Assembly: GCF_018918095.1 (NCBI RefSeq)
Contig: NZ_JAHLPV010000022.1
Coordinates: forward strand, 1-45,142
Source: Acetivibrio sp. MSJd-27
Lineage (GTDB): Bacteria > Bacillota > Clostridia > UMGS1840 > HGM11507
Direction: 5' to 3'
DNA length: 45,142 bases
Each line of letters starts with the position of its first letter. The first letter of the stretch is position 1. Of the stretch, positions 20,083 to 41,293 are shown in pieces. A program made the translations under genes and the position numbers. The notes beneath the pieces were generated by a model. It did no database searches. It worked only from the letters and a program-made list of their open reading frames with translations, and was not told where the DNA came from.

Positions 20083-20919
20083 CTATTTTTCTGTTGCAAC
20101 CGTCAGGTTTGTTCCATCCGTATGAATGATAATATCTCCGTTTTTATCTGTTCTATACACTTCAGCATTTTTCAGTGTCTCCAAGGTCTCCTGATGGGGA
20201 TGTCCATACTCATTATCCTTTCCGCAGGAAATAACCGCAATGCGCGGATTCACTTTGGCGATAAACTTTTCGGAGGAGGAGGTTCTGCTTCCATGATGTC
20301 CGACCTTCAGTACATCCGAGCGGATTTCATAGTTCAGCATCTCATTTTCCGAAAGCTTTTCCGCATCTCCGGCAAACAAAAACGTTGTATTCCCATAAGC
20401 GATATGAAGTACCGCACTGTAATTATTCAGGCTTTCATACTTCTCATCCTTTTTCGGTGCGACCAGCTGTATCTTACAACGGTCGGTTTCGTGCAGGACA
20501 ACACCTGACTCTGCTTTGACGGCTGGAATCTCTTTTTCTTTTATTTTTTTCAGCAAATTCTCATAGGTTTTCGATGTATGCACGACCGAGGGGAAAACCA
20601 CTGTTCCGATCTCAGCGCTGTCAATAATGTCTTCCATTCCGCCGATATGATCCGCATGGGGATGCGTGGCAATCAAATAGTCAATTTTTCGGATTCCTTT
20701 TCTTTTCAGCGCCCTGATAATATTACCGCTCTGATCCTTCGTCCCCGCGTCAATAACAATATTTGTGCCGTCCTCCATGCGAATGATTTCACAGTCCGCA
20801 TTTCCTACATCCAGATAGGTGATTTCCATCCCGGAAAGCGGTTCTGCCTTCTGTGTGGTAAACTGGCACCCTGTCAAAAGCAAAAGCATTGCTAGAAGCA
20901 ATATAAAACATTTCTTCAT
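20083..20919 (-). CDS. ComEC-like MBL-fold hydrolase, lipoprotein
   Basis: A 278-residue protein with a lipoprotein signal peptide (lipobox LLTGC, Cys18), so it is anchored on the outer face of the membrane. The metallo-beta-lactamase core shows THPHADHIGGM (about residue 85), GHHGSRTSSS (about 208) and a YGHPHQETL block. These match the C-terminal hydrolase domain of ComEC/Rec2, which is thought to degrade DNA during uptake. This stand-alone form could be an extracellular nuclease or phosphodiesterase; the substrate is unproven. It lies downstream of the hydrogenase-phosphatase cassette and upstream of DUF3006. Confidence 0.85.
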   Translation of the reverse strand: MKKCFILLLAMLLLLTGCQFTTQKAEPLSGMEITYLDVGNADCEIIRMEDGTNIVIDAGTKDQSGNIIRALKRKGIRKIDYLIATHPHADHIGGMEDIIDSAEIGTVVFPSVVHTSKTYENLLKKIKEKEIPAVKAESGVVLHETDRCKIQLVAPKKDEKYESLNNYSAVLHIAYGNTTFLFAGDAEKLSENEMLNYEIRSDVLKVGHHGSRTSSSEKFIAKVNPRIAVISCGKDNEYGHPHQETLETLKNAEVYRTDKNGDIIIHTDGTNLTVATEK

Positions 20920-20938: not shown

Positions 20939-22114
20939 TCAATAATAGGTTACTGTGACCCGTTTTCCTAATGCTTCCATTATAGACACCAACTCGTCCA
21001 GCAGACGAAGTTTGATGCTCAAATCCACTGGGAGATTTGGATTCTGATGGGCAGGATTGATTGCCTTTCCCACAAATAGATGTAGCATGGTGCAATCTTC
21101 AATCAGAAGCTTTGCCAAAAGCGCCGCACCGTTTTTCTGATCCAGTGTTTTCAGATATCCATAATCAATATCATGCTTCATGTATTCCTTTAATATCTCA
21201 ACTGTCTTGGAGATGGTCAGCACGCCCTCCGTAACCAGATCAATTCCGTCAATATAAGCAATCGGCGGAATATCGGGGTCGACATATTCCAAACTGGTGG
21301 CAATCTGTTTGCCGGTAACCCGGCTGACGATATTGGCACTGGTTCCGCCGCATACCACTTTTTTTGCCTGTACATCCTCCAAAAAGTCACAGACGAGCCT
21401 TTGATCCTTGTCCGCTTCCTTCGGCGGGCCGGAAAAGAGGTTGACCACCTTATGTGCCAGAACCTTTGCTACCAGCACGGTGGTGTCATCCCCCGGCTGT
21501 CCCATATACAGGTTGTCACATACACTGGACAGGGATGCACAGATACGGGAAGCAGACATCTCCGGCTTTGCCTCCGCCTGCAGGAAATTAGCCGCATTCT
21601 GCCATTCCCATCCCAGATTCAGTGTTTGACCTACCCCTGCATGAATCACACCATCACTGAAAATGGCAAACACATCACCGGGAAGTACATCAAAATGGCA
21701 TTCTCTCACCTGCTTGCCCCAGATTTCCTTTTCCTCTATCGGCAGCTCCAGCAGCTGCCCATCCCGGATAAATACACAAGAGGGGCTGTCGAACTCTACC
21801 AGATGCGCATGGCGCTCATTGTCGATCTCCAGAATACTGAAGGTGGAATAGGCCAGTTTGCGCACCTTGCACACCGGGAGAGTGTTGACGATGGTTTCCA
21901 CTACCTCCTCCAGCTCCGCACCGTTTTTGAGCATTGTTCCGATAATCTTTGAGGTCAGAGTGGCCAAAATATTTGCCTTTACCCCACTGCCCAGCCCATC
22001 TGCCAAAACCAGAATAATGGATCGGTCGGTGCGGATAATTTCCACTTTATCCCCACATAGCTCCTCGTTTTTTTTATTTAAGCTTTTGTAATAGGCATCG
22101 ACATGGATACTCAT
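20939..22114 (-). CDS. SpoIIE-type PP2C serine phosphatase
   Basis: A 391-residue soluble protein. The N-terminal PP2C/SpoIIE phosphatase domain has the metal motifs ADGLGSG (about residues 38-44), IFSDGVIHAG (about 149-158) and GDDTTVLVAK (about 204-213). Residues 230-390 form a second, unassigned helical region. Such enzymes remove phosphate from serines, typically on anti-sigma-antagonist (STAS) proteins. Its start overlaps the stop of the hydrogenase-PAS gene by four bases (ATGA), so the pair are coupled. This suggests that the phosphatase is the output of a redox or hydrogen sensor; no partner STAS or anti-sigma gene is nearby. Confidence 0.88.
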   Translation of the reverse strand: MSIHVDAYYKSLNKKNEELCGDKVEIIRTDRSIILVLADGLGSGVKANILATLTSKIIGTMLKNGAELEEVVETIVNTLPVCKVRKLAYSTFSILEIDNERHAHLVEFDSPSCVFIRDGQLLELPIEEKEIWGKQVRECHFDVLPGDVFAIFSDGVIHAGVGQTLNLGWEWQNAANFLQAEAKPEMSASRICASLSSVCDNLYMGQPGDDTTVLVAKVLAHKVVNLFSGPPKEADKDQRLVCDFLEDVQAKKVVCGGTSANIVSRVTGKQIATSLEYVDPDIPPIAYIDGIDLVTEGVLTISKTVEILKEYMKHDIDYGYLKTLDQKNGAALLAKLLIEDCTMLHLFVGKAINPAHQNPNLPVDLSIKLRLLDELVSIMEALGKRVTVTYY

Positions 22115-23826
22115 TTTTCTTCCTCTCCGTCATAAATGATGGTCTTCTTCAGTTTGGTAAGGGTTACCTTGGTTTCCGCAGTGGTTTCTCCGAGCAGGGA
22201 TGCAATCTCCTGCGCCACCATCATCTGCTTGTCAATTACCTTTTGGGCCATCTCCATCGTGTCCATCTTCAGCTTGTAAGCCTTTTGCTCTCTGGCCTCC
22301 TCCTGGGTGATGTCCTGAAGAAATCCAATGATAACCTGGTGCTTCGGAACATAAATGATGTCCTGCGATGTTTTCAGTCCAAATTCCGGATAATCCGCTT
22401 TCAGATCGGTCACATCTTGTTTTGACAGCAGCACCTTTCTGAAGTTCTCATCGTCAATAATATCGGAAAGTTCCCGGTTCAGCGCATCCTTTCTGGTCAG
22501 ATGAAAAGCAGATTCTGCCGCGTGATTGAACTCCACAATCTTCATGTCCTGATTCACGGCGATGATAATATTGGGCGTATAGGCCAGCACCACGTTGGAA
22601 AGGGATTGGGTCATCTCATTCATGTAGGGCATACACATGGAAAGCTGTGCCTTGTTCTGGAATACCGCTATCGCTTTATCCCGGCAGGAGGGGTACCCGC
22701 ATGATCCGCAGTTCAGTTCCTGCTCCTCCGTCTCCTTTCCGATGCGCTTCAGAATGCCCCGGATCGTTGCCTCATCCGGAATCGGTTCCTTCGCTCTTCT
22801 GTCTACAAACTGTTTCTGCATGCCAACCTGATGACGAAATACCGGATATGCTGAGGTGTCAGCAGTGGAATACCTTTTAATCTTCTGCTGTGCACCGAAA
22901 AATTCATAGGGTTCCCCGTTGACAGCCGGTCCGTTGATACATCCCTCCGGGCAGGCGTTGATCTCGATGAATGTTTTGTGCAGTTTATTGTTTTTTAACG
23001 CTTCGAATACAAGCTTAACCTGTTCGATGCCGCTGATCGTTATCGTCTGGTATCCATTGAGTCCGCCTTTGCTCAGCAGGCTTTTGATAATCCCGGCAGA
23101 GATCGGATAGCGCCGCGCTACCTTCGGATCCGTACCTGAAAACGAATCCGCCTCAAGAGTTGAAGGAAAAATTCCTTTTTCCAGCATCCAGGAGGAAAGC
23201 TCCTCAAAGGTTAAAACCGCATCCACGGCATCGTCATGCCGAATATCAGCCGCCTCGGCTTTTTTTGAAATACACGGACCGATAAATACAACCTTGATTT
23301 CCCTGCCGTACTTCTCCTTTAACATCTTACCGTGGGCAATCATAGGGGAAACCACCGGCGCCATGTAGGGCAGAACCTCACAATAGTATTTTTCCGCAAG
23401 GGCATTGACAGTAGGGCAGCACGTTGTCACAATATTATCCATCTGCCCTTTAACAAGCAATTTGTAGTATTCATCGGTTACCATGACCGCGCCCTGCGCA
23501 GTCTCACAGACATCGTAAAATCCAAGCTTTTTCAGCGCGTTCACCATCTGTCCCGGCTCTTTGCATTCAAAGGAGCCCAGGAAGGACGGAGCAAGGGAAA
23601 CAAAAACCTTTTTTTCCTCCCGCAAAAAGGATTTCACCAGTTCCAGATCGCTGTACAGGACCTTTGCATTCTGAGGACAGGCCTCCAGGCAGCGACCGCA
23701 GAGAATACACTCTTCCTCAATAATTTCCGCCTGCTCATTGTGTACCCGGATGGATTTCACCGGACAAACCCGGACGCATTTATAGCAATTCATGCAGTTG
23801 GCTTTCTTTAAACCAATGACGCTCAT
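22111..23826 (-). CDS. PAS-containing [FeFe] hydrogenase homologue (putative sensory, group C-like)
   Basis: This 571-residue protein has domains in this order: two [4Fe-4S] ferredoxin motifs (cysteines within 11-50), the H-cluster domain, a CGSCGYPSC iron-sulfur motif (Cys373-381, with Cys398), a PAS domain (about 405-505) and a C-terminal coiled coil. H-cluster motifs are TTCCP (136-137), GPCISKK (Cys185) and ACPEGC (Cys292, 296). The GPC form and the PAS tail fit sensory group C rather than the catalytic MPC type. The ATG at 23826 follows AGGAGG; the longer frame lacks a site. It should need HydEFG (31520-35129) for maturation. A sensing role is inferred from architecture and the coupled phosphatase. 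Confidence 0.88.
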   Translation of the reverse strand: MSVIGLKKANCMNCYKCVRVCPVKSIRVHNEQAEIIEEECILCGRCLEACPQNAKVLYSDLELVKSFLREEKKVFVSLAPSFLGSFECKEPGQMVNALKKLGFYDVCETAQGAVMVTDEYYKLLVKGQMDNIVTTCCPTVNALAEKYYCEVLPYMAPVVSPMIAHGKMLKEKYGREIKVVFIGPCISKKAEAADIRHDDAVDAVLTFEELSSWMLEKGIFPSTLEADSFSGTDPKVARRYPISAGIIKSLLSKGGLNGYQTITISGIEQVKLVFEALKNNKLHKTFIEINACPEGCINGPAVNGEPYEFFGAQQKIKRYSTADTSAYPVFRHQVGMQKQFVDRRAKEPIPDEATIRGILKRIGKETEEQELNCGSCGYPSCRDKAIAVFQNKAQLSMCMPYMNEMTQSLSNVVLAYTPNIIIAVNQDMKIVEFNHAAESAFHLTRKDALNRELSDIIDDENFRKVLLSKQDVTDLKADYPEFGLKTSQDIIYVPKHQVIIGFLQDITQEEAREQKAYKLKMDTMEMAQKVIDKQMMVAQEIASLLGETTAETKVTLTKLKKTIIYDGEEEK

Positions 23827-24068
23827 TTTTTCATTCCTCCTAAAATGTGCTCTGAAAAAAAGCGCTCCGCTTCCTCCGGCTGAAGGGAATAAAGCTGTTC
23901 GTCCAGCTTTACGCCGACACCGTTGACGCATTGTCCCATGCAGAAAGAGCCCCGGAGCTCAACCTTCCCGTCCAGAGCGTTTTCTCCGATTTTCTTTTGA
24001 AAGACATCAATGATTTGTTTTGAACCTTTCAGATGGCAGGAACTGCCCACACAAACCGTTACGACCAT
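23823..24068 (-). CDS. Thioredoxin-like [2Fe-2S] ferredoxin (NuoE-like)
   Basis: An 81-residue protein with the four-cysteine pattern of thioredoxin-fold [2Fe-2S] proteins: Cys6 and Cys11 in VCVGSSCH, then Cys43 and Cys47 in SFCMGQC. The fold is that of the NuoE/HydC-type subunits. The ATG at 24068 follows GAAGGAG; a longer frame to 24110 has no site. Its stop overlaps the start of the hydrogenase-PAS gene (ATGA), so it probably supplies or withdraws electrons for that protein. Confidence 0.88.
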   Translation of the reverse strand: MVVTVCVGSSCHLKGSKQIIDVFQKKIGENALDGKVELRGSFCMGQCVNGVGVKLDEQLYSLQPEEAERFFSEHILGGMKK

Positions 24069-24139: not shown

Positions 24140-24168
24140 ATCATACAAGAAAACGCTTGAAATTTCAA
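24140..24168 (-). promoter_or_regulatory. Promoter of the sensory hydrogenase cassette
   Basis: The minus strand has TTGAAA (24163-24168), a 17-base spacer and TATGAT (24140-24145), about 70 bases upstream of the 2Fe-2S gene. Confidence 0.6.
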
Positions 24169-24298: not shown

Positions 24299-26869
24299 AT
24301 GATGAAAAAAATCGTGGCTTTCACCGTGATTCTATGTCTCTGCATCTCATCTTTGACAGGAATATCAGCTGTGGCACAGAGCAACGAAAAAAACTATTTA
24401 CCCCCTGTTGATCTGGGTGAATTTATCGAGACCTGCCAGCCGCTTGACTCAGTAGTGGAAGAGATAGACGGCGTGGACTATCTGTTCTCGTCCTCCACCG
24501 GTTCCCCTGCTGTCTTCAATATCTATAATCTAGATGCACAGCAGTATATCAAATCTTATGAGCTGACAGACTCCAGCTCTCCCTGGATCCATGTAAAGGA
24601 TTCCAAAGGAAAAATATACATTGCGGCCGACGCCTATGTTTACAGCTACGATCCCTATTCCGATCAGTTTGAATCCCTCGGAAAATGTCTATCGACAGAA
24701 TCCGCCACCTTTGTTATGACCATCGATGAAAACGACAATCTGTATATCGGCACCTATCCCAGCGCCAAGATCGTCAAATACGATTCCGTCCAAAAAGAAT
24801 TTATCGATTTAGGGACTGTGGAGAAGGGAGCAAATTATGTTCGCTCTATCGCTTATCATAACGGTTACCTCTATTGCGGCACCTTCGGAAACGGCGCGCC
24901 GAAATTCATTCGTATGAATCCAAATAATCCGGAAGAAAAAAAAGAATTTCCCGTTCCGGCAAATGACAGTTACTATGACGTGAATGAGATGATATGGATT
25001 TACACCATGAACACGCTGGGAGATTACATTGTGATCTACGCATCGGCGGAAGGCATCACACCAATGCTGGTGTTTGACACAAATACGGAACGGTTCATTG
25101 ATATTGATTTTGAAGAATATTACCGCGGTCTTTACACCACGCCTGAACTGAACGGCAAGGCATACTGCATCACCCTTGATAAGATGTATGAAATCGACAT
25201 AACGAACGGATTCCAGATTACCGATTTTGATTTTCCCATTCCCTATAAAACCTCTTTCCGCGGAGGTGGATGGATTACCGTAGAAGACGATCCCGATTTT
25301 CCGGGCAAATCTTACTGCACCGTTGACACTGGAGACGGCAGTCCCACCATTTATAATATGCAGACAAAAAAATATAAAAAGCTTACGGATCACGGTCAAA
25401 AAGGCGGAAAAATCAACCTGCAAGCTATTGAAAAAGGTCCGGGAGACGAAATCTATCTTGGCGGATATATGGGACATCAGGGTGCGGCTTACAATGTGAA
25501 AACCGGGAGTACCGTCACTTTCCCGATCGGTCAAACTGAAGGAATGGTGGAGTATAACGGAAAAATGTATTTCGGTATCTATCCAAAGGCGTGGCTCTAT
25601 GAATACGATCCGTCCCTGCCCGTGGATTCCAAAACCAATCCGAAAGCGTTGGCACAGATAGAGGAAAGCCAGGATCGCCCCTTTGCTCTGACAGCGGCCG
25701 ACGGAAAAATATTTATAGGCACTGTTCCCGATTACGGACAGTTGGGAGGTGCTCTCAGCATTTATGATCTTGCTTCGGGAAAAATGACGACTGTGCGCAA
25801 TCTCGTGCAAAATCAGAGCATCATAAGCCTGGCAGTGAAGGATGGCATGCTGTACGGATCCACCTCCGCATACGGCGGACTCGCCTCCACACCCAGTGAG
25901 AAGCAGGCAAAGCTGTTCGTCTATGACTATAAAACCAATGAGAAAGTGAAAGAGGTTACGGTTGACATTCCCGGCGTGTCAAATCCGCTGTGCATCGGCG
26001 GCATCTCTTTTGACGAAAGCGGTCTTTTGTGGTGCGTGTCGGGCAAAACCTTATTCGCCGTTGACCTCGACACACAAAAAGTTGTAAAAAGCAAAGTTTT
26101 TGAAGAGTTCAGCTATAATCCATCCTCACATCAATGGCGCCCAACTTATATCCGCTGGGCTTCGGACGGCCTGCTCTATACAAACATCAACGGCATAAAA
26201 GCGGTGGACACCGAAACCATGAATGCAATCGATCTGCAGTCTCTGACGGGGAATGCAGCTTTATTTACGATCGGTACCGACGGAAATCTGTATTATAATT
26301 CCGGTTCACACCTGAAAATGATTCCGGTTTCCTCTGTTGCAATGGACAACAGCAATCTGACGGAAATCCGCACTTATTTTACAGAAAATATCGGTCTGTT
26401 CGTGGATAATCCCCTGGCTATGGCGAAAGGAGAACCCCAGAGCATCGATCCGGCGAACAGTGATGTCAAACCAATTGTACAAAATGATAGAACCCTAGTT
26501 CCCGTTCGCTTTATCGCGGAGACCTTGGGCGCCGATGCAGCTTGGGATGATTCCACGCAGACAGCAACACTGACAAAGGGCGATTCTGTCGTGAATGTGA
26601 CGCTAAATCAAAAGGAAATGCTGGTAAACGGCGAAAGAGTTTCTCTGGACGTTCCGGCGCAGACCGTGAACGATCGTACTCTCCTGCCACTGCGCGCTGT
26701 CTCGGATGCCTTTTCCAAGCAGGTCTACTGGGAGCCCTCCGGAAGCGGTCTAATCATTATCTCCGATGAACCGGTGACTATCGACAGAGATATGACGCAA
26801 AGAATGATCGCATACTTCCGTTTCTATATCAAATCTGACAAAAAAGAAACTGGTTTTTCGGCAAAATAA
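24299..26869 (+). CDS. Secreted beta-propeller protein with C-terminal stalk domain
   Basis: An 856-residue exported protein. A signal peptide covers residues 1-27 (cleavage near AVAQ). Residues about 40-690 hold many repeated four-strand units (for example DNLYIGTYPSAKIVKYD, GEIYLGGYMG-like and GKMYFGIYPKAWLYEYD), consistent with one or two beta-propellers. The C-terminus (about 725-830) is the copper-amine-oxidase-N-like stalk domain, with two halves around NDRTLVPVRFIAETLGA and NDRTLLPLRAVSDAF. Stalk domains are common on Clostridia cell surfaces; ligand and function are unknown. GGAGG lies eight bases before the ATG at 24299; a second ATG follows directly. Confidence 0.8.
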   Translation: MMKKIVAFTVILCLCISSLTGISAVAQSNEKNYLPPVDLGEFIETCQPLDSVVEEIDGVDYLFSSSTGSPAVFNIYNLDAQQYIKSYELTDSSSPWIHVKDSKGKIYIAADAYVYSYDPYSDQFESLGKCLSTESATFVMTIDENDNLYIGTYPSAKIVKYDSVQKEFIDLGTVEKGANYVRSIAYHNGYLYCGTFGNGAPKFIRMNPNNPEEKKEFPVPANDSYYDVNEMIWIYTMNTLGDYIVIYASAEGITPMLVFDTNTERFIDIDFEEYYRGLYTTPELNGKAYCITLDKMYEIDITNGFQITDFDFPIPYKTSFRGGGWITVEDDPDFPGKSYCTVDTGDGSPTIYNMQTKKYKKLTDHGQKGGKINLQAIEKGPGDEIYLGGYMGHQGAAYNVKTGSTVTFPIGQTEGMVEYNGKMYFGIYPKAWLYEYDPSLPVDSKTNPKALAQIEESQDRPFALTAADGKIFIGTVPDYGQLGGALSIYDLASGKMTTVRNLVQNQSIISLAVKDGMLYGSTSAYGGLASTPSEKQAKLFVYDYKTNEKVKEVTVDIPGVSNPLCIGGISFDESGLLWCVSGKTLFAVDLDTQKVVKSKVFEEFSYNPSSHQWRPTYIRWASDGLLYTNINGIKAVDTETMNAIDLQSLTGNAALFTIGTDGNLYYNSGSHLKMIPVSSVAMDNSNLTEIRTYFTENIGLFVDNPLAMAKGEPQSIDPANSDVKPIVQNDRTLVPVRFIAETLGADAAWDDSTQTATLTKGDSVVNVTLNQKEMLVNGERVSLDVPAQTVNDRTLLPLRAVSDAFSKQVYWEPSGSGLIIISDEPVTIDRDMTQRMIAYFRFYIKSDKKETGFSAK

Positions 26870-31519: not shown

Positions 31520-32716
31520 TCATAAATCAATTTTATCCAGAATTCCAGTCATCTTTGCAAGAAAAACACCGTAATTTGTGATTGGCACCCTTTGCCGCTT
31601 TGCCTGCGTGATTCGGGACAGGACATAGCGGCGGTTGAACATACAGGCGCCGCAGTGGATAACCAGATCATAAGGGGTTAAATCCTTTGGAAAGTCAGAT
31701 CCATTGACGATATCAATGGAAATGCTATCCCCGTATTTTTTTCGAAGCAGCCGCGGGATTTTCACCCTGCCGATATCCTCGTCAAGCGGTTTGTGCGTAC
31801 AGGCCTCTGCAATCAAAATCCGGGAGTTTCCGCTGAGCGTTTCCACCGCACCAGATCCCCGCACATATTCCTGAATATCGCCCTTGTATCTGGCAAACAG
31901 CACAGAAAAAGAGGTCAGCATAGCCTCCGGCGGCTTTTTCTCATAGACCTCGCCAAACACCTGTGAATCCGTCACAATCAGCTTTGGCGGTCTCTTCAGA
32001 CTGTCCAGCGCAAACGCAAGCTTATCGGTTGTGACACTCATCACAATACATTTATTGTCCAGTAAATCCCGAATGGTCTGCACCTGCGGCAGGATCAGCC
32101 TGCCCTTAGGCGCCTGAATATCCTGCGGCATAACCAAAAGAACAACGTCGTCCTCTTTGACCAGATGAGAGGTGATACTGCTTGCGGCGAATTCTTCCGG
32201 CATCATCCTCACCAAAGCCTCCATCAGCAGAGATATGTTTTCCCTTTTTTGGGCGCTGACGCTGATTGCCTCCATTCCAAAATTCTCTTTCACTGCGCGC
32301 TTTACGTTTTCCGCATCCGGCAGAATATCTATTTTGTTGACAACGGCAACAACCGGTATGTCTCTCTCCCGAAGCGCCGCGATCCATCCCTCCTCCTCGG
32401 TGGTTTCCGTGTCAGCGAATACCATAACGGCGATATCTGTCCTTTCAATCACCCCACGGGTTTTTTCGATTCGCAGCTTTCCCAGTTCTCCCTGATCGTC
32501 AAATCCCGCCGTGTCGATAAACACACAGGGCCCCAAAGGCAGAACCTCCATGGATTTGTAAACCGGATCGGTGGTCGTTCCCAGCACATCGGATACCAGC
32601 GCGGTCTCCTGATTGGTCACCGCGTTGATCAGGGAAGATTTCCCGCTGTTCCGTTTTCCAAAGAAGGCGATGTGCAACCGTTCTGAACGAGGCGTGTTGT
32701 TTAAATTCATCTCCAC
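31520..32716 (-). CDS. hydF: [FeFe]-hydrogenase maturation GTPase HydF
   Basis: HydF is the scaffold on which the 2Fe subcluster is assembled and from which it is passed to the hydrogenase. The 398-residue protein has a P-loop GKRNSGKSS (residues 20-28), DTAGFDD (about 72-78) and NKID (about 137-140) of the GTPase domain. The C-terminal cluster ligands follow the family pattern, with CTH (in AEACTHKP) and, about 45 residues on, HCGAC. It follows hydG by six bases in the hydE-hydG-hydF operon. Confidence 0.95.
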   Translation of the reverse strand: MEMNLNNTPRSERLHIAFFGKRNSGKSSLINAVTNQETALVSDVLGTTTDPVYKSMEVLPLGPCVFIDTAGFDDQGELGKLRIEKTRGVIERTDIAVMVFADTETTEEEGWIAALRERDIPVVAVVNKIDILPDAENVKRAVKENFGMEAISVSAQKRENISLLMEALVRMMPEEFAASSITSHLVKEDDVVLLVMPQDIQAPKGRLILPQVQTIRDLLDNKCIVMSVTTDKLAFALDSLKRPPKLIVTDSQVFGEVYEKKPPEAMLTSFSVLFARYKGDIQEYVRGSGAVETLSGNSRILIAEACTHKPLDEDIGRVKIPRLLRKKYGDSISIDIVNGSDFPKDLTPYDLVIHCGACMFNRRYVLSRITQAKRQRVPITNYGVFLAKMTGILDKIDL

Positions 32717-32722
32717 TCCTCC

Positions 32723-34141
32723 TTAGAACCGGAAGTCCCGTTTCCCTTCGTGTAATTCCTCCAGATGCTCCCTCACGATCTGTCTGACCTTCTCATTGGA
32801 AATATGGGGAATTTCCTTCTGAATAACCGTTTCCCCTTTCCTCCGGGTATCCTCGGAGGCATAGTCCTCCAAATACTCCTTCAATGTCATAAGCGCGTTG
32901 GGCTGACAGACATTCGCAATCTGTCCGCTCTTGACCAGCTGCATAAAGCGGTCGCCGGTTCTGCCCTCCCGATAACAAGCGGTACAGAAGCTTGGGATAT
33001 AGCCCAGCTCTAACAGCCAATTCACCACCTCATCCAGGGTTCTGGTATCATTCACCTCAAACTGGGCGGAGTTTTCCTCCTCCCGCTCCGCATAACCACC
33101 TACGCTGGTGGAGGATGCGCCGCTGATCTGGGAAACCCCTAATTTCAGAACCTTTTCCCTGGTCTTCTGGGATTCCCGTGTAGAGATAATTAAGCCGGTA
33201 TAGGGCACTGCAATTCGCAGGATCGCGACGATCTTTTCGAAGATTTCATCTGGAATCGCATTGGAATAGTCATTCATGTCCACATCGTCCGCCGGACGGA
33301 TTCTCGGAACGCTGATGGTGTGAGGCCCCACGCCGAAGGTATCCTCCAAATGATGGGCATGCATCAGAAGCCCCACAAAATCATATTTATACAAATTCAG
33401 TCCGAACAGAACACCGATGCCCACATCGTCGATGCCGCCCTCCATCGCCCTGTCCATCGCCTCCGTATGATAACTGTAGTTATGCTTCGGTCCCGTCGGA
33501 TGGAGGTACTCATAGTTTTCCTTGTGATAGGTTTCCTGGAACAGGATATAAGTGCCGATGCCCGCCTCCTTCAGCTTTCGGTAATTCTCCACCGTCGTGG
33601 CGGCTATGTTCACATTCACCCGTCGGATCGCGCCGTTTTTGTGCTTGATGCTGTAGATGGTTTTAATGCTCTCCAGCACATATTCAATGGGACATTTCTC
33701 CGGATCCTCACCGGTTTCCAATGCCAGCCGCTTATGTCCCATATCCTGCAAGGCAGTGACCTCCCGCACAATGTCCTCCTGGGACAGCTGCTTTCTGGCA
33801 ATATGCTTGTTTGAGCCGTGATAGGGGCAGTAACGGCAACCGTTAATGCAGTAATTGGACAGATACAGCGGCGCGAACATGACAATCCGGTTGCCGTAAA
33901 ATTTCAGCTTGATCTCCTGCGCCAGCTTTGCGATCTTCTCCATGATATCAGGGAGCTCACATTCCAGAAGCACTGCCGCTTCCTGATAACTCAGCCCTTT
34001 GCAGTCCTTCGCGCGTTCAAGAATGTCTTCAATCAGAGGACGGTTTTCCTTGTTTTTTTCGGCGTACTCCAAGGTCTTCAAGATCTCTTCATGATCGATA
34101 AATTCCGTTGCGATTTTTGATTTACTGTTATACAATGACAA
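32723..34141 (-). CDS. hydG: [FeFe]-hydrogenase maturation radical SAM protein HydG
   Basis: HydG splits tyrosine to make the CO and CN ligands of the H-cluster. The 472-residue protein has the radical SAM motif CINGCRYC (Cys98, 102, 105) and the C-terminal second cluster motif CX2CX22C (CTAC ... NVC), which distinguishes HydG from the related ThiH. The length matches the family. It lies between hydE and hydF. The start at 34141 has AGGAAG upstream. Confidence 0.96.
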   Translation of the reverse strand: MSLYNSKSKIATEFIDHEEILKTLEYAEKNKENRPLIEDILERAKDCKGLSYQEAAVLLECELPDIMEKIAKLAQEIKLKFYGNRIVMFAPLYLSNYCINGCRYCPYHGSNKHIARKQLSQEDIVREVTALQDMGHKRLALETGEDPEKCPIEYVLESIKTIYSIKHKNGAIRRVNVNIAATTVENYRKLKEAGIGTYILFQETYHKENYEYLHPTGPKHNYSYHTEAMDRAMEGGIDDVGIGVLFGLNLYKYDFVGLLMHAHHLEDTFGVGPHTISVPRIRPADDVDMNDYSNAIPDEIFEKIVAILRIAVPYTGLIISTRESQKTREKVLKLGVSQISGASSTSVGGYAEREEENSAQFEVNDTRTLDEVVNWLLELGYIPSFCTACYREGRTGDRFMQLVKSGQIANVCQPNALMTLKEYLEDYASEDTRRKGETVIQKEIPHISNEKVRQIVREHLEELHEGKRDFRF

Positions 34142-34163
34142 AACTTCCTTTCCTAGTTACCCT

Positions 34164-35129
34164 TTAAACCGGAATTCTTCCCAGCCTGTGTATCATTTCT
34201 TCCAGTTCTCTGCGTTCTTTATAGATATCTGTCTCTCCCAGATCCGCAGGATATATTTCATATAATTTTTTATAGGCGTCCGGCGTGACTTTCCGCATGA
34301 CAACATTTGCTCCACAGGAAAACACACTGTTTTTTTCTTCCGCATCCAACACACCCAAAGCGGTTGTTGCCGGCAGATTGATTTCCGGCATTAAAATGCG
34401 AGTCAGCGCTACCGCCCGCTTTGTCAGCTCTGTGCTGCCGTGAGGTGAATTTTTCAGCGGCGTGTCCGGATGAGGAATAAACGGGCCTATCCCTGCCATG
34501 TCACAACCGATTTCATAAATCAGCAGAATATCCGCAGCGATGGTTTCAAGGGACTGTCCGGGTAGTCCGATCATAAAACCGCTCCCCGTCTCATAACCCA
34601 GTTTTTTTAAGTTTTTCAGACAGGAAATCCGTTCCTCCAGCTGCGAATCCGGATGAAGGGCGCGGTAAATCTCCGGATCTGCCGTCTCCTGCTTCAAAAG
34701 ATAGCGGTCCGCGCCGCATTCTTTTAAATAGGAATAGTCTTCAAAGGACATCTCTCCGCAGCTCAGGGTTATTTTGATGCCTGTTTTTTTGATCTCCCTG
34801 ACAATCTCTCCTAAAAGCTGCGGTGTATAAAAGGGATCCTCTCCCGACTGCAGGACAACTGTCTTGTATCCCGCATCCCACGCCTGCCGGGCGGTAGATA
34901 CAATTTCCTCCGGTTTCATCCGGAACCGCTTTGCTTTCCGGTTTGTGCAGTTTAGACCGCAATAGCGGCACTGCCGCCGGCAGTGGTTGGAAAATTCCAG
35001 AATCGACCGGATGTAAACCACATCAGATACATTGACTTTCCGAACCCTGTCGGCCTCCGCATAGACCGACGAAAAGTCCTCCATTTTCAAAAGGGAAGCA
35101 AGCTCCCGCCTGCCGGGCGCCCTATCCAT
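34164..35129 (-). CDS. hydE: [FeFe]-hydrogenase maturation radical SAM protein HydE
   Basis: HydE acts in assembly of the dithiomethylamine-bridged 2Fe subcluster. The 321-residue protein has the radical SAM motif CRRQCRYC (Cys50, 54, 57) and the family block LSCGEMSFEDYSYLKECG. It is about 25 residues shorter at the N-terminus than many HydE proteins, and no upstream in-frame start exists before a stop codon, so the ATG at 35129 is the best start. It overlaps the end of the TM1266-family gene by eight bases and is followed by hydG after about 22 bases. Confidence 0.94.
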   Translation of the reverse strand: MDRAPGRRELASLLKMEDFSSVYAEADRVRKVNVSDVVYIRSILEFSNHCRRQCRYCGLNCTNRKAKRFRMKPEEIVSTARQAWDAGYKTVVLQSGEDPFYTPQLLGEIVREIKKTGIKITLSCGEMSFEDYSYLKECGADRYLLKQETADPEIYRALHPDSQLEERISCLKNLKKLGYETGSGFMIGLPGQSLETIAADILLIYEIGCDMAGIGPFIPHPDTPLKNSPHGSTELTKRAVALTRILMPEINLPATTALGVLDAEEKNSVFSCGANVVMRKVTPDAYKKLYEIYPADLGETDIYKERRELEEMIHRLGRIPV

Positions 35130-37003: not shown

Positions 37004-40000
37004 ATGGGAAGAAAAATGAAGACAATGGACGGCAACAGTGCCGCCGCTTGGGCGTCCTATGCGTTTACCGACGTTGCGGGCATCTACCCAATCACCCCTT
37101 CTTCTCCAATGGCAGAAGTTTCGGATGAATGGGCAACTGCTGGCAAAGAGAATATTTTCGGCCAGCCGGTTAAAATTGTGGAAATGCAGTCAGAAGCCGG
37201 TGCTGCCGGTACCGTACACGGTTCTTTGACCGCTGGCGCTTTGACCACAACCTACACTGCATCTCAGGGCTTACTCTTGATGATTCCGAATATGTACAAG
37301 ATCGCAGGTGAACTGCTTCCGGGCGTTATCCACTGCAGTGCGCGCTGTGTCGCTACACACGCGTTAAACATTTTCGGCGATCATTCCGACGTTATGGCTT
37401 GCCGCCAGACCGGTTTTGCAATGCTGTGTTCCAACAGCGTACAGGAAGTTATGGACTTAGGCGCAGTCGCTCATCTGTCCGCTATCAAGGGAAGGGTTCC
37501 TTTCCTGCATTTCTTTGACGGTTTCCGGACCTCCCACGAAATCAACAAAATTGAAGTCTGGGATTACGAAGACTTAAAAGAAATGGTGGATATGGACGCG
37601 GTAAAAGCATTCCGCAACAATGCGCTGAATCCGGAACATCCGGTTCTCCGCGGAAGCGCGCAGAATCCTGATATCTTCTTCCAGGCGAGAGAGGCATGCA
37701 ATCCCTTCTATGATAACATTCCTGCTGTTGTGGAAGAGTACATGAACAAAGTCAACGCCAAAATCGGCACCGACTACAGCCTGGTGAACTATTACGGCGC
37801 ACCGGATGCGGATAAAGTTATCGTTGCAATGGGCAGCATTTGCGAAACCATTGAAGAAACCATTGATCATCTGAATGCAAACGGCGAAAAAGTCGGTATG
37901 ATCAAAGTTCATCTGTATCGGCCTTTCCCGGTTGAACATTTCTTAAAAGCAGTTCCTTCCACCGTGAAGAAAATCGCTGTTCTGGACAGGACAAAAGAAC
38001 CTGGCTCCATCGGCGAACCGCTGTATCTGGATGTATGTGCCTGCTATAATGATCAGGCAAGCAAGCCGGAGATCATCGGCGGAAGATTCGGTCTGGGTTC
38101 CAAAGACACGGTTCCTGCCGATATCATTGCTGTTTACCGGAATCTGGATAAGGAAACTCCTCAGCATCCGTTCACTCTGGCTATCGAGGATGATGTAACA
38201 AACCTGTCCCTGCCGAGAACGGAAAATCCGGACACCTCCGCGGAAGGCAACACCGCATGTAAATTCTGGGGTCTGGGCTCCGACGGTACCGTTGGCGCAA
38301 ACAAGAACTCCATCAAAATCATCGGTGACCATACTGATTTATATGCACAGGCTTACTTTGCATATGATTCCAAAAAATCCGGCGGTATCACCGTATCGCA
38401 TCTGCGGTTCGGTAAAAAGCCAATCAAATCCACTTACCTTATCAACAAGGCAAACTTTGTTGCATGTCATAACCCGTCTTATGTTGACAAATATAAGATG
38501 GTACAGGATCTGGTTCCCGGCGGCAAGTTCCTTTTGAACTGCGCTTGGGATGTGGACGAGCTGTCCGAACGGCTTCCCGCTGACATGAAAAAATATATCG
38601 CAGAGAATAACATCTCCCTGTACACCATCGATGCAATCGGTATTGCAAAAGAACTGGGGCTGGGCAATAAAACCAGCATTGTTCTGCAGTCCGCATTCTT
38701 CAAACTGGCGAACGTTATCCCGTTTGACGATGCAGTGAAATACATGAGAGAAGCTGTTGTCAAATCCTTCGGCGCCAAAGGCGAAAAGATTGTCAGCATG
38801 AACCATGCCGCAATCGTGGAAGGCGAAAAGAATATCAAAGAAATCAAAGTTCCGGAAGAATGGAAAAATGCGGTTGATGCTCCGAAACAGGAAGAGACCG
38901 AAGTTCCCGCTTTCGTGAAAGATATTCTGATTCCGTGCAATGCGCAGAGAGGCGATGAACTGCCGGTATCTACCTTTAAGGGCAGAGAAGACGGTACGCT
39001 GGATCAGGGTTCCGCTAAGTATGAAAAACGCGGTATCGCTGTCGATGTTCCGGAATGGATTCCCGAAAACTGTATCCAGTGTAATCAGTGCTCTTACGTT
39101 TGTCCGCACGCCGCTATCCGTCCTGTTGTTCTGACAGAGGAGGAAGCAAAGAATGCTCCTGCGGCTATGAAGTTAAAGAAAATGACTGGCAAGGGCTGCG
39201 AAAACTATCAGTTTGGCGTTGCAGTTACAGTGCTTGACTGTACTGGCTGCGGAAACTGTGCAAATGTCTGCCCTGCAAAAAATAAAGCTTTGGTTATGAA
39301 GCCGATCGATACACAAAGAGAACAGCAGGCTTGCTTCGATTACGGTACCAGTGTATCGGTAAAAGAGGATCTGCCGTTTGCACCGACAACCGTAAAAGGT
39401 TCTCAGTTCAAACAGCCTCTTCTCGAGTTCTCCGGCGCTTGCGCAGGATGTGGCGAAACACCTTATGCAAAACTGATTACCCAGCTGTTTGGTGATAGGA
39501 TGTACATTGCCAATGCAACCGGATGTTCTTCTATCTGGGGCGGCAGCGCACCTTCCACCCCTTACACAACCAACCACAAAGGTCACGGTCCTGCATGGGC
39601 GAACTCCCTGTTCGAGGACAATGCTGAATTTGGTCTGGGTATTGCTCTGGGTTCCAGCCAGATCAGAGACAGACTGGCTGCAAAAGTCAAAGAAATTGAC
39701 GATGCCGGCGTAAAGGCTGCGGCGGAAGAATGGACAGCTACTTATACGGACGGAGAGGCAAATACTCCTGCGACCGAAAAGCTGGTTGCAGCGTTGGAAG
39801 CTTGCGGTAACGCGGCTTGCAAAGAAGTGCTTGACTTCAAAGAATATCTGTCCAAGAAATCTGTCTGGATCTTCGGCGGTGACGGATGGGCCTATGATAT
39901 CGGCTTCGGCGGTTTGGATCATGTGATTGCAACCGGCCAGGATGTAAACATTATGGTATTTGATACGGAAGTTTACTCCAACACCGGCGGTCAGGCCTCC

Positions 40001-40510
40001 AAAGCGACACAAACGGGTGCTGTTGCACAGTTCGCAGCAGGCGGCAAACCGATCAAGAAAAAAGACCTGGCTCAGATTGCAATGTCCTACGGCTATGTCT
40101 ATGTTGCTCAGATTGCTCTGGGTGCTGATATGAACCAGGCTATCAAAGCAATTAAGGAAGCGGAAAGCTATCATGGTCCGTCCCTTATCATTGGTTATGC
40201 ACCCTGTATCAACCATGGTATCAAAGGCGGCATGACAAATACGCAGAAAATCATTAAAAATGCGGTGGAAGCTGGTTACTGGCATACCTTCCGCTTCGAT
40301 CCGAGAGCTACGGCAGAAGGCAACAATCCGTTCCATCTGGATTCCAAAGAACCTACTGGTTCTTACAGAGACTTCATCATGAACGAGGTTCGTTATACCT
40401 CTCTGGCACGTTCCTTCCCGGAAAAAGCAGAAAGACTGTTCGAAGAAGCGGAAAAGAATGCAAAAGCAAAATATCAGCATCTGCTCAACTACGGAAAACT
40501 GTTTGATTAA
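37004..40510 (+). CDS. nifJ: Pyruvate:ferredoxin (flavodoxin) oxidoreductase
   Basis: PFOR converts pyruvate and CoA to acetyl-CoA, CO2 and reduced ferredoxin, the central catabolic step of many anaerobes. The 1168-residue single-chain enzyme has its domains in the usual order. The pyruvate-binding domain I starts near residue 20 (AYAFTDVAGIYPITPSSPM). The 8Fe-8S ferredoxin domain has CIQCNQCSYVC (about 690) and CTGCGNCANVC (about 745). The cluster cysteine region CAGCGE lies near 812, and the thiamine-diphosphate motif GDGWAYDIG with NTGGQ near 960-1000. AAGGAGG precedes the ATG. Codon choice looks strongly biased, as for a highly expressed gene. A terminator follows directly. Confidence 0.97.
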   Translation: MGRKMKTMDGNSAAAWASYAFTDVAGIYPITPSSPMAEVSDEWATAGKENIFGQPVKIVEMQSEAGAAGTVHGSLTAGALTTTYTASQGLLLMIPNMYKIAGELLPGVIHCSARCVATHALNIFGDHSDVMACRQTGFAMLCSNSVQEVMDLGAVAHLSAIKGRVPFLHFFDGFRTSHEINKIEVWDYEDLKEMVDMDAVKAFRNNALNPEHPVLRGSAQNPDIFFQAREACNPFYDNIPAVVEEYMNKVNAKIGTDYSLVNYYGAPDADKVIVAMGSICETIEETIDHLNANGEKVGMIKVHLYRPFPVEHFLKAVPSTVKKIAVLDRTKEPGSIGEPLYLDVCACYNDQASKPEIIGGRFGLGSKDTVPADIIAVYRNLDKETPQHPFTLAIEDDVTNLSLPRTENPDTSAEGNTACKFWGLGSDGTVGANKNSIKIIGDHTDLYAQAYFAYDSKKSGGITVSHLRFGKKPIKSTYLINKANFVACHNPSYVDKYKMVQDLVPGGKFLLNCAWDVDELSERLPADMKKYIAENNISLYTIDAIGIAKELGLGNKTSIVLQSAFFKLANVIPFDDAVKYMREAVVKSFGAKGEKIVSMNHAAIVEGEKNIKEIKVPEEWKNAVDAPKQEETEVPAFVKDILIPCNAQRGDELPVSTFKGREDGTLDQGSAKYEKRGIAVDVPEWIPENCIQCNQCSYVCPHAAIRPVVLTEEEAKNAPAAMKLKKMTGKGCENYQFGVAVTVLDCTGCGNCANVCPAKNKALVMKPIDTQREQQACFDYGTSVSVKEDLPFAPTTVKGSQFKQPLLEFSGACAGCGETPYAKLITQLFGDRMYIANATGCSSIWGGSAPSTPYTTNHKGHGPAWANSLFEDNAEFGLGIALGSSQIRDRLAAKVKEIDDAGVKAAAEEWTATYTDGEANTPATEKLVAALEACGNAACKEVLDFKEYLSKKSVWIFGGDGWAYDIGFGGLDHVIATGQDVNIMVFDTEVYSNTGGQASKATQTGAVAQFAAGGKPIKKKDLAQIAMSYGYVYVAQIALGADMNQAIKAIKEAESYHGPSLIIGYAPCINHGIKGGMTNTQKIIKNAVEAGYWHTFRFDPRATAEGNNPFHLDSKEPTGSYRDFIMNEVRYTSLARSFPEKAERLFEEAEKNAKAKYQHLLNYGKLFD

Positions 40511-40517
40511 TTGGCCA

Positions 40518-40558
40518 AGAGGGATTCACGGAGCTATCTTCGTGAATCCCTTATTTTT
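40518..40558 (+). terminator. Terminator of the PFOR gene
   Basis: AGGGATTCACG (40520-40530) pairs with CGTGAATCCCT (40541-40551), followed by TATTTTT, within ten bases of the stop codon. Confidence 0.85.
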
Positions 40559-40582
40559 AACAGAGAAAGAAGGGAGTTCTAT

Positions 40583-41293
40583 ATGAACAAAAAAATGAAA
40601 ACTTGCGCTTTTGCCGTTGCTGCTGCGCTCACTTTTTCCTGCGGTGTTTTCGCGGACGATATCGTGAAAAATATTACCGCAGAACTAAGAGGGGATGTAA
40701 AAGTGGTGGTAGATGGCAAGGTTCAATCCTTCCAGGATGCAAACGGAAAGACGGTATATCCGGTTATGTATGAAGGAACCACCTATCTGCCGGTGCGTGC
40801 CATCAGCAATCTGATGAGAAAAGCGGTCAACTGGGACGATGCGACACAAACCGTTCAGCTGGGTGCTTTGGATGCTTATACCGATGTAGTTGATATGACG
40901 GACAAAGGAACCGGATATGCCGGCAGCAAGGTCATTGATGCAAATGAGCTGACCTTTAAACACGGGGATACTCAGGAGAATAAAACGTATCGGAATGCCA
41001 TCCGTCTGGTTGAAGTAAACAGCGCGAGAAAAGATTTTGCCTTGAAGCTGGACAATAACTATTCCATGATAAGCGTAACACTTCACAATCCGAAAACCAA
41101 CAGCAGTCAAGTGGTCTTTGAGATTTCCGACGCGGACACTGGGATCGTGCTAGTTACAAAAAACTTGGAGCCGGGTCAGTTCTTTGACTATAAGGACGCC
41201 AACCTGAACAATGCAAAAGGCCTTACCTTTAGCGCAACAGGAAAAGCCGGAGAAAATGCAACCGCATATTTTCTGGATCCGCGGATAAGATAA
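40583..41293 (+). CDS. Secreted stalk-domain (copper-amine-oxidase-N-like) protein
   Basis: A 236-residue exported protein: signal peptide 1-24 (cleavage after VFA), then a single stalk-domain unit (VVVDGKVQSFQD and YLPVRAISNLMRKAVNW, about residues 40-95), then about 140 residues of predicted beta structure without a recognised fold. The stalk unit is the same type as at the C-terminus of the propeller protein at 24299. It is presumably located on the cell surface or in the wall. The ATG at 40583 follows AAGGGAG; the frame extends 72 bases upstream across the PFOR terminator. Function unknown. Confidence 0.8.
   Translation: MNKKMKTCAFAVAAALTFSCGVFADDIVKNITAELRGDVKVVVDGKVQSFQDANGKTVYPVMYEGTTYLPVRAISNLMRKAVNWDDATQTVQLGALDAYTDVVDMTDKGTGYAGSKVIDANELTFKHGDTQENKTYRNAIRLVEVNSARKDFALKLDNNYSMISVTLHNPKTNSSQVVFEISDADTGIVLVTKNLEPGQFFDYKDANLNNAKGLTFSATGKAGENATAYFLDPRIR

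Follow-up and report, generated by a model that had tools for sequence, protein, structure and literature searches.

A three-gene cassette on the minus strand of Acetivibrio sp. MSJd-27, running from 24068 to 20939 of the window (the whole 45,142-nucleotide stretch of DNA that we analyzed), encodes a [2Fe-2S] protein, an [FeFe] hydrogenase and a SpoIIE/PP2C phosphatase, and is likely a phosphatase-linked sensory [FeFe] hydrogenase module of HydDB group C3, of the HydS/HfsBC type. The hydrogenase, HfsB, is probably an H2 sensor with the phosphatase, HfsC, as the recipient of its signal; the sensing step is one that we infer. Many gut and rumen fermenters carry group C hydrogenases, which are believed to inform the cell of the amount of H2 left by neighbors, and this amount decides between H2/acetate and ethanol. 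The initial annotation presented the cassette as unusual, but it is a member of an already defined and published class that is widespread among fermenting anaerobes, listed in HydDB as [FeFe] group C3, 'phosphatase-linked (putative)' (PMC5037454). Beyond that annotation, we found that HfsC universally carries a C-terminal domain, that adhE, an APH-fold kinase and a catalytic hydrogenase are frequent neighbors of the cassette elsewhere, and that a STAS/RsbW switch is excluded as its general output.

Organization of the cassette

The first gene, fdx (23823..24068, minus strand), encodes an 81-aa [2Fe-2S] thioredoxin-fold protein resembling the NuoE C-terminus (PF01257, 2Fe-2S_thioredx, E 5.8e-10). 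Its C6, C11, C43 and C47 are invariant across 10 homologues, and a GGAG ribosome-site-like stretch lies just 5' of its ATG. It is followed by an hfsB/hydS-like gene for a 571-aa group C [FeFe] hydrogenase (22111..23826, minus strand; called from Pfam, tree and residue counts), for which an alternative in-frame start upstream would overrun the ferredoxin gene, and by an hfsC-like gene for a 391-aa SpoIIE/PP2C protein phosphatase (20939..22114, minus strand; PF07228, SpoIIE, E 9.4e-20). The three genes lie where the initial annotation had placed them and are coupled, as it described, by ATGA overlaps, which we located at 23826-23823 (fdx/hfsB) and 22114-22111 (hfsB/hfsC). It had also proposed a single promoter. 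A promoter-like TTGAAA-17-TATGAT is indeed present 5' of fdx (24140..24168, minus strand; consensus match only), but such sites in the region are no more numerous than in shuffled sequence (4 observed vs 5.1 expected). One promoter for all three genes is no more than plausible.

The gene 3' of hfsC (20919-20083) encodes an MBL-fold (ComEC-like) lipoprotein, and the hfsD-type catalytic hydrogenase that would define an hfsABCD cluster is absent from the position directly 3' of hfsC. Because neither a catalytic hydrogenase nor adhE adjoins the cassette, which stands alone in its own genome, the module must act in trans.

HfsB groups with PAS-type group C hydrogenases

In a tree with row labels assigned by profile score and without named HydDB references, HfsB grouped with 33 homologues of the PAS type in a single clade (SH-aLRT 88). 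This PAS-type group C clade was separate from group A (SH-aLRT 100) and from group B (SH-aLRT 91). Profile scores were far below the cut-offs for both other groups (TIGR02512 for group A, 104 bits vs 405.95; TIGR04105 for group B, 212 bits vs 450), and HfsB lay outside both clades. The two features of group C (M2f, HydS), a PAS domain after the H-domain and a C-terminal Cx2Cx4Cx16C cluster, are present. So is the group C3 feature of an adjoining Ser/Thr phosphatase gene, here SpoIIE/PP2C with an ATGA overlap, and we found no difference between the cassette and HydDB C3, in which a PAS-bearing group C hydrogenase likewise stands beside such a gene (PMC5037454). The initial assignment to group C, as a putative phosphatase-linked sensor, withstood two of the refuting conditions set for it: in the hydrogenase phylogeny that had been suggested as a check HfsB groups with PAS-type group C and not with group A, and hfsB lies directly upstream of hfsC in 65 of the 67 loci examined. 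At two loci (L098 and L104) hfsC has no adjacent hfsB, so the link between phosphatase and HfsB is not a strict one.

From N- to C-terminus, HfsB (all coordinates on the minus strand) comprises a two-[4Fe-4S] ferredoxin domain (residues 8-58, 23653..23805; Fer4_10, E 5.3e-9), the H-cluster domain (residues 72-300, 22927..23613; PF02906, Fe_hyd_lg_C, E 3.5e-58), the [4Fe-4S] motif Cx2Cx4Cx16C (C373, C376, C381 and C398, 22627..22719; PF04060, E 4.4e-10), a PAS domain (about residues 409-512, 22291..22602; PF00989, E 2.7e-6, match over residues 417-472) and a C-terminal helix recognized by its conservation (residues 515-562, 22141..22284; core KQMxxxQEIASLLGETxAETK). Mean conservation is 0.82 over residues 530-556 vs 0.51 in the PAS domain. 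The claims that the hydrogenase has a PAS domain in its tail and keeps every H-cluster cysteine were correct: C137, C185, C292 and C296 (L1, L2 and L3 motifs) are retained in 64/64 group C homologues, as is the diagnostic Cx2Cx4Cx16C motif. The GPC variant that had been singled out is present, but it is the rule in group C (glycine in 61/64 homologues) and no oddity.

Compared with the CpI sequence, HfsB has Gly at M353 and Asn at M497, both positions that are altered in sensory enzymes, and E279 and E282 are replaced. The greater part of the catalytic proton path is missing. HfsB does retain the C299-equivalent cysteine (C136), and some catalytic turnover is therefore possible. Thermotoga maritima Tm HydS is similar in having a group C H-domain with PAS and Gly in place of M353, while it has Ala where HfsB has Cys (C299) and Ser where HfsB has Asn (M497) (PMC10055695). 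The C-terminal Cx2Cx4Cx16C cluster is also shared with the group D (M2e) enzyme Tam HydS (PMC8163306) and with a homologue on contig 15 of the same genome; however, these group D proteins have no PAS domain and form a clade separate from HfsB (PMC8163306; our tree).

That HfsB is a plain electron-delivering or H2-evolving hydrogenase with an incidental phosphatase neighbor is highly improbable. Hfs was originally reported as the main hydrogenase of Thermoanaerobacterium saccharolyticum (PMC11837493), and the H-cluster cysteines are kept. However, deletion of hfsB in that organism increased hydrogenase activity (PMC5707799), the PAS domain and C-terminal cluster are conserved, and the phosphatase gene adjoins at nearly all loci.

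Known systems and the sensed signal

The cassette resembles T. saccharolyticum hfsABCD in that a PAS hydrogenase gene (hfsB) precedes a phosphatase gene (hfsC), but hfsABCD has an hfsD-type hydrogenase downstream, and its hfsB is preceded by HfsA, which is poorly alignable to known proteins, instead of a [2Fe-2S] protein (PMC5707799, PMC11837493). Deletion of hfsB in T. saccharolyticum raised adhE expression and ethanol, whereas deletion of hfsC or hfsD did not (PMC5707799). The cluster of Ruminococcus albus 7 likewise pairs an H-cluster and PAS protein, HydS, with a phosphatase, but there the transcript also covers adhE and a ferredoxin-only A1 hydrogenase, whereas our cassette has neither adhE nor a catalytic hydrogenase beside it (PMC6776011). 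Expression of this eight-gene cluster (group C gene, A1 hydrogenase and adhE among them) dropped 111-fold in co-culture, and its regulation tracks the H2 level (PMC6776011). We did not find a direct demonstration of H2 sensing by any C3 system in the papers that we read.

The window also contains, on the minus strand, genes for the H-cluster maturation GTPase HydF (31520..32716; TIGR03918, 559.9 bits, cut-off 325.55) and the radical SAM maturases HydG (32723..34141; TIGR03955, 920.1 bits, cut-off 312.15) and HydE (34164..35129; TIGR03956, 304.7 bits, cut-off 254.6). On the plus strand it encodes a pyruvate:ferredoxin oxidoreductase (PFOR), a source of reduced ferredoxin (37004..40510; TIGR02176, 1850 bits).

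It is possible, though we do not favor it, that what the iron-sulfur clusters of the module detect is not H2 itself but reduced ferredoxin or redox poise, and that the H-cluster domain acts as a redox or proton valve. The several Fe-S cluster motifs per protein, the [2Fe-2S] partner, the presence of PFOR and hydEGF within the window and the replaced proton-path residues are consistent with such a role. However, a pure ferredoxin sensor would have no need of the H-cluster ligands that all 64 homologues retain, and the R. albus response follows H2.

In the H2-sensing mechanism that we prefer, the H-cluster would be built by the nearby-encoded HydEFG, and its state would be set by H2 or by the ferredoxin redox state. 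The electron state might then reach the PAS domain via the C-terminal cluster of HfsB, with the [2Fe-2S] protein as the probable electron partner. The PAS/helix tail would alter HfsC phosphatase activity, perhaps through the HfsC C-terminal domain, and HfsC may reset a phosphoprotein through which hydrogenase and ethanol (AdhE) metabolism is tuned.

HfsC carries a conserved C-terminal domain

The structure model of HfsC matched SpoIIE and PP2C structures (VIA Z 20.7 to SpoIIE 5ucg_A, rmsd 2.8 over 205 residues), and among 63 homologues the metal-binding aspartates D22, D39, D154 and D209 are retained by 95% or more. Homologue scans and structure comparison delimit a C-terminal alpha/beta domain (about residues 222-391; 20942..21451, minus strand) that is always present in HfsC-type phosphatases. 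The initial annotation had left this region unassigned, and a Pfam scan of it across 59 homologues likewise returned no family, just scattered matches at chance level. The domain is conserved and unnamed, and its near-invariant residues offer targets for mutation.

A Foldseek search with the domain gave no match at E 0.001 or better. The VIA-align matches agree on molybdopterin-oxidoreductase/NuoG domains, at Z scores of 7-9 that are weak. A likeness to phosphoheptose isomerase (SIS) had E 0.0037 in a search with the full profile but 0.078 once the profile was deepened, and was dropped.

Candidate partners of the phosphatase

HfsC is a SpoIIE-type phosphatase, and in a classical partner switch it would remove the phosphate that an RsbW-like kinase had placed on a STAS anti-anti-sigma factor. 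The search for STAS/anti-sigma partners that the initial annotation had suggested was mainly negative. The cassette itself contains neither a STAS substrate nor an RsbW-like kinase. Elsewhere in the genome we identified SpoIIAA/AB, one SulP-like STAS protein and one RsbW-like kinase (HATPase_c_2) on contig 15, the only such protein over the cut-off besides SpoIIAB, located in a hydABC/group D hydrogenase locus. That location is in favor of this kinase as the partner, as is locus L098, where hfsC lies inside a hydABC/group D operon beside DRTGG and HATPase_c_2 genes. However, this is the sole such linkage among the 67 hfsC loci, and the group D locus is absent from 48/109 hfsC genomes, so the contig 15 kinase was rejected as a universal partner. 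Among other cassette-bearing genomes, one (G354) has a single STAS protein, of 692 aa, and lacks any HATPase_c_2 over the cut-off, and another, 98% complete (G201), has neither over the cut-off. Because the latter lacks both proteins, a STAS/RsbW switch cannot be the general output, which narrows the question of how the phosphatase branch signals. For the present cassette, with the contig 15 protein or SpoIIAA/AB as candidates, such a switch is distinctly improbable.

Other genomes often have the cassette next to adhE and to genes for an APH-fold kinase and a catalytic hydrogenase, in the order rex-adhE-kinase-fdx-hfsB-hfsC-hydrogenase. At the 67 hfsC loci, fdx is present in 50 and a catalytic hydrogenase lies at most 4.5 kb away in 46. 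HfsC might oppose the adhE-linked APH-fold kinase, the pair setting the phosphorylation of AdhE or of an adhE regulator. Of the 41 genomes that have both genes, 27 have the kinase gene no more than a few kb from hfsC, and at other sites the kinase gene is directly 3' of adhE in 10/11 loci. Co-occurrence with hfsC gave a Fisher p of 2e-5, which ignores kinship and is not to be read as a probability. Deletion of hfsB in T. saccharolyticum alters ADH but not ALDH activity, in which its authors saw possible post-transcriptional control (PMC5707799). However, the kinase is missing from 68/109 hfsC genomes, which excludes it as a universal partner, and in Acetivibrio sp. MSJd-27 it is an orphan with Asn in place of the catalytic Asp. 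Small molecules are, moreover, often the phosphorylation substrates of APH-fold enzymes. We regard this pairing as unlikely overall, while for part of the genomes the adhE-linked kinase provides a concrete candidate for the antagonist of HfsC. Neither candidate partner (group D-linked kinase or APH-fold kinase) occurs in 27/109 hfsC genomes, and we found no candidate conserved across the cassette-bearing genomes examined.

A more speculative reading, which we consider quite unlikely as a whole, is that the HfsC C-terminal domain is an undescribed sensor that binds a ligand or cofactor and resembles the cofactor domain of FhcB/FwdB and NuoG. The cassette would then integrate two inputs, H2 and a further redox metabolite, and its output would be reversible phosphorylation opposite the adhE-linked APH-fold kinase rather than STAS/RsbW switching, so that H2 would control ethanol metabolism through a kinase/phosphatase switch.

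A scan of the genome collection with one protein as query retrieved 5 loci only, and a scan of viral contigs retrieved one contig that is probably bacterial.

Cassette organization and relation to known systems

The cassette lies on the minus strand and comprises fdx (24068-23823), encoding an 81-aa NuoE-like protein with a 2Fe-2S_thioredx domain; hfsB (23826-22111), encoding a 571-aa [FeFe] hydrogenase with two N-terminal [4Fe-4S] motifs, an Fe_hyd_lg_C domain (residues 72-300), a C-terminal FeS motif (residues 370-400) and a PAS domain (about 409-512); and hfsC (22114-20939), encoding a 391-aa phosphatase with a SpoIIE domain (residues 30-218). No NCBIfam model reached its cut-off with any of the three proteins. 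The initial annotation described genes coupled by ATGA overlaps under one promoter. ATGA is present at both the fdx/hydrogenase and the hydrogenase/phosphatase junction; a promoter-like site is found immediately 5' of fdx, but shuffled sequence yields sites of this kind no less often.

Downstream lies a gene for an MBL-fold ComEC-like lipoprotein (20083-20919), and upstream a divergent gene whose secreted product has a Cu-amine-oxidase N-terminal domain (24299-26869). A second secreted protein with a similar domain, judged by eye, is encoded at 40511-41293; the two flank parts of the window and, as far as seen, have no relation to the cassette.

Group C3 of the [FeFe] hydrogenases was defined in HydDB as 'phosphatase-linked (putative)' with its role given as undetermined (HydDB 2016, PMC5037454), and the cassette is a further C3 member with a stand-alone layout. 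In R. albus, the C-type gene shares a transcript with adhE and an A1 hydrogenase gene; the cluster is strongly down-regulated once a partner removes H2 (PMC6776011). In contrast, no catalytic hydrogenase, adhE or APH-fold kinase gene stands beside the cassette in the window; the adhE of this genome is on contig 1 and its kinase homologue on contig 17. Deletion of hfsB in Thermoanaerobacterium raises ethanol yield and adhE expression, an effect that requires hfsC and hfsD (PMC5707799). The system is already known and common, and our results narrow the question of its signalling path without answering it.

Conservation of the gene order

Of 391 genomes drawn from the class, about 109 encode phosphatases of the hfsC type, nearly all at full length with the C-terminal region included. 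In the 67 loci examined closely, the gene order noted in the initial annotation is conserved, with hfsB immediately 5' of hfsC in 65 and an upstream fdx detected in 50. In 46 loci a catalytic hydrogenase is encoded no more than 4.5 kb away, most commonly a group B-type enzyme directly 3', the hfsD position (37 loci). The APH-fold kinase is present in 18 loci and adhE in 14, and the longest order is rex-adhE-kinase-fdx-hfsB-hfsC-hydrogenase.

Several loci (L046, L049, L121, L122, L127, L129, L130 and others) carry two tandem [2Fe-2S] genes before hfsB, the second copy being more divergent. One single-contig genome (G125) has an fdx-hfsC pair with no hfsB alongside, adjoining hydABC (L104:8996-10448). 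A contig filed as viral, IMGVR_UViG_3300010275_000261 (L080), carries hydA-like, hfsB and hfsC genes and is probably bacterial and misfiled.

Placement and residues of the hydrogenase

A tree of 65 rows, built with hydrogenases of this genome and of its class, places the protein inside a PAS-type clade (SH-aLRT 88, with 97 for a 24-member subset). Group D adjoins this clade, whereas groups A (100) and B (91) are separate from it. The assignment of the protein to group C, as first proposed, rests on domain architecture and the published description, with tree rows named by profile score.

All 64 group C proteins compared keep the H-cluster cysteines (137/185/292/296), as had been claimed for this protein, and also Cys 373/376/381/398, an exact match to the Cx2Cx4Cx16C motif described for sensory enzymes (PMC8163306). 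Relative to CpI, Met353 is replaced by Gly183 (Gly in 61/64) and Met497 by Asn290 (Ser in 41, Asn in 18), and the catalytic proton-path residues Glu279 and Glu282 correspond to Tyr120 and Leu123. The counterpart of the proton-relaying C299 is retained as Cys136 (Cys in 46/64); 17% of sensory enzymes in the HydDB set have Cys at this position (PMC10055695).

The helix following the PAS domain (core KQMxxxQEIASLLGETxAETK) has a mean conservation of 0.82 over residues 530-556, versus 0.51 for the PAS domain. It is the best candidate surface for a putative phosphatase contact, consistent with the earlier suggestion that the PAS tail could meet the C-terminal region of the phosphatase.

Predicted structure of the phosphatase

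In a model of the whole phosphatase (pLDDT 82.6), residues 1-221 match SpoIIE and other PP2C structures (VIA Z about 20). Because at least 95% of the 63 homologues compared keep D22, D39, D154 and D209, the protein should be an active metal-dependent enzyme. No Pfam family fits the C-terminal part, which, folded separately from 59 sequences, is confidently predicted to form an alpha/beta domain (pLDDT 90, pTM 0.86). In structure comparison it consistently comes closest to the dinucleotide-binding type domain found in FhcB, FwdB/FmdB, NuoG and formate dehydrogenases (with 6s6y_B, rmsd 2.8 over 114 residues at Z 9.0, a Z that a common arrangement can give); Foldseek returned nothing significant for this domain. 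The model places the conserved motifs G229-P-P, C255-G-G, L293-V-T-E-G297, G349 and N353-x-A-H356 after successive strands. Judged from sequence order and secondary structure rather than coordinates, these motifs would sit where folds of this type usually have a binding site.

Candidate output partners

The initial annotation had called for a search for STAS and anti-sigma partners, and such proteins do exist in this genome. It encodes two SpoIIE-domain proteins (the sporulation SpoIIE and the cassette phosphatase), two HATPase_c_2 kinases (SpoIIAB and another encoded next to the group D hydrogenase) and two STAS proteins (SpoIIAA and one SulP-like). Among 28 cassette-bearing genomes, however, G201 (98% complete) lacks any STAS match and any HATPase_c_2 over the cut-off, and G354 (99% complete) has no HATPase_c_2 over the cut-off and a single STAS protein, of 692 aa. 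Subject to possible assembly gaps, these two genomes rule out partner switching as the general output of the cassette. A single locus of the 67 (L098, G101 contig 19) physically joins hfsC to an RsbW-like kinase: hfsC, without hfsB, lies within a group D operon by DRTGG, HATPase_c_2, PHP and hydABC genes, a layout that hints at a link.

Forty-one genomes have both hfsC and the APH-fold kinase, a candidate antagonist of HfsC, and in 27 of them the two genes are near each other; when away from hfsC, the kinase gene is immediately 3' of adhE in 10 of 11 loci. The kinase is absent from 68 of the 109 hfsC genomes, and 27 of the 109 lack both partner candidates. The kinase homologue in this genome (L144:10806-11549, contig 17:24802-25545) stands alone and may be a pseudokinase, since HGN replaces the HGD catalytic motif invariant in 15 homologues.

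Maturation genes and other hydrogenases

Predicted maturation genes for the hydrogenase are present in the window: hydE (34164-35129), hydG (32723-34141) and hydF (31520-32716), all over curated cut-offs. They form a single cluster (31520-35129) beside a ferritin-like gene and an adjoining pyruvate:ferredoxin oxidoreductase gene (37004-40510), so the window is a region of hydrogen and ferredoxin metabolism that extends past the cassette. The genome (98.8% complete) encodes three further [FeFe] hydrogenases: contig 15 carries a group D enzyme as well as the HydA of a hydABC locus, and the third, of group B, is on contig 18. This HydA (L005:10343-12097) has TSCSP where CpI has TSCCP, placing Ser at the C300 ligand position; TSCSP is also found in HydA1 of PDB 7q4v.
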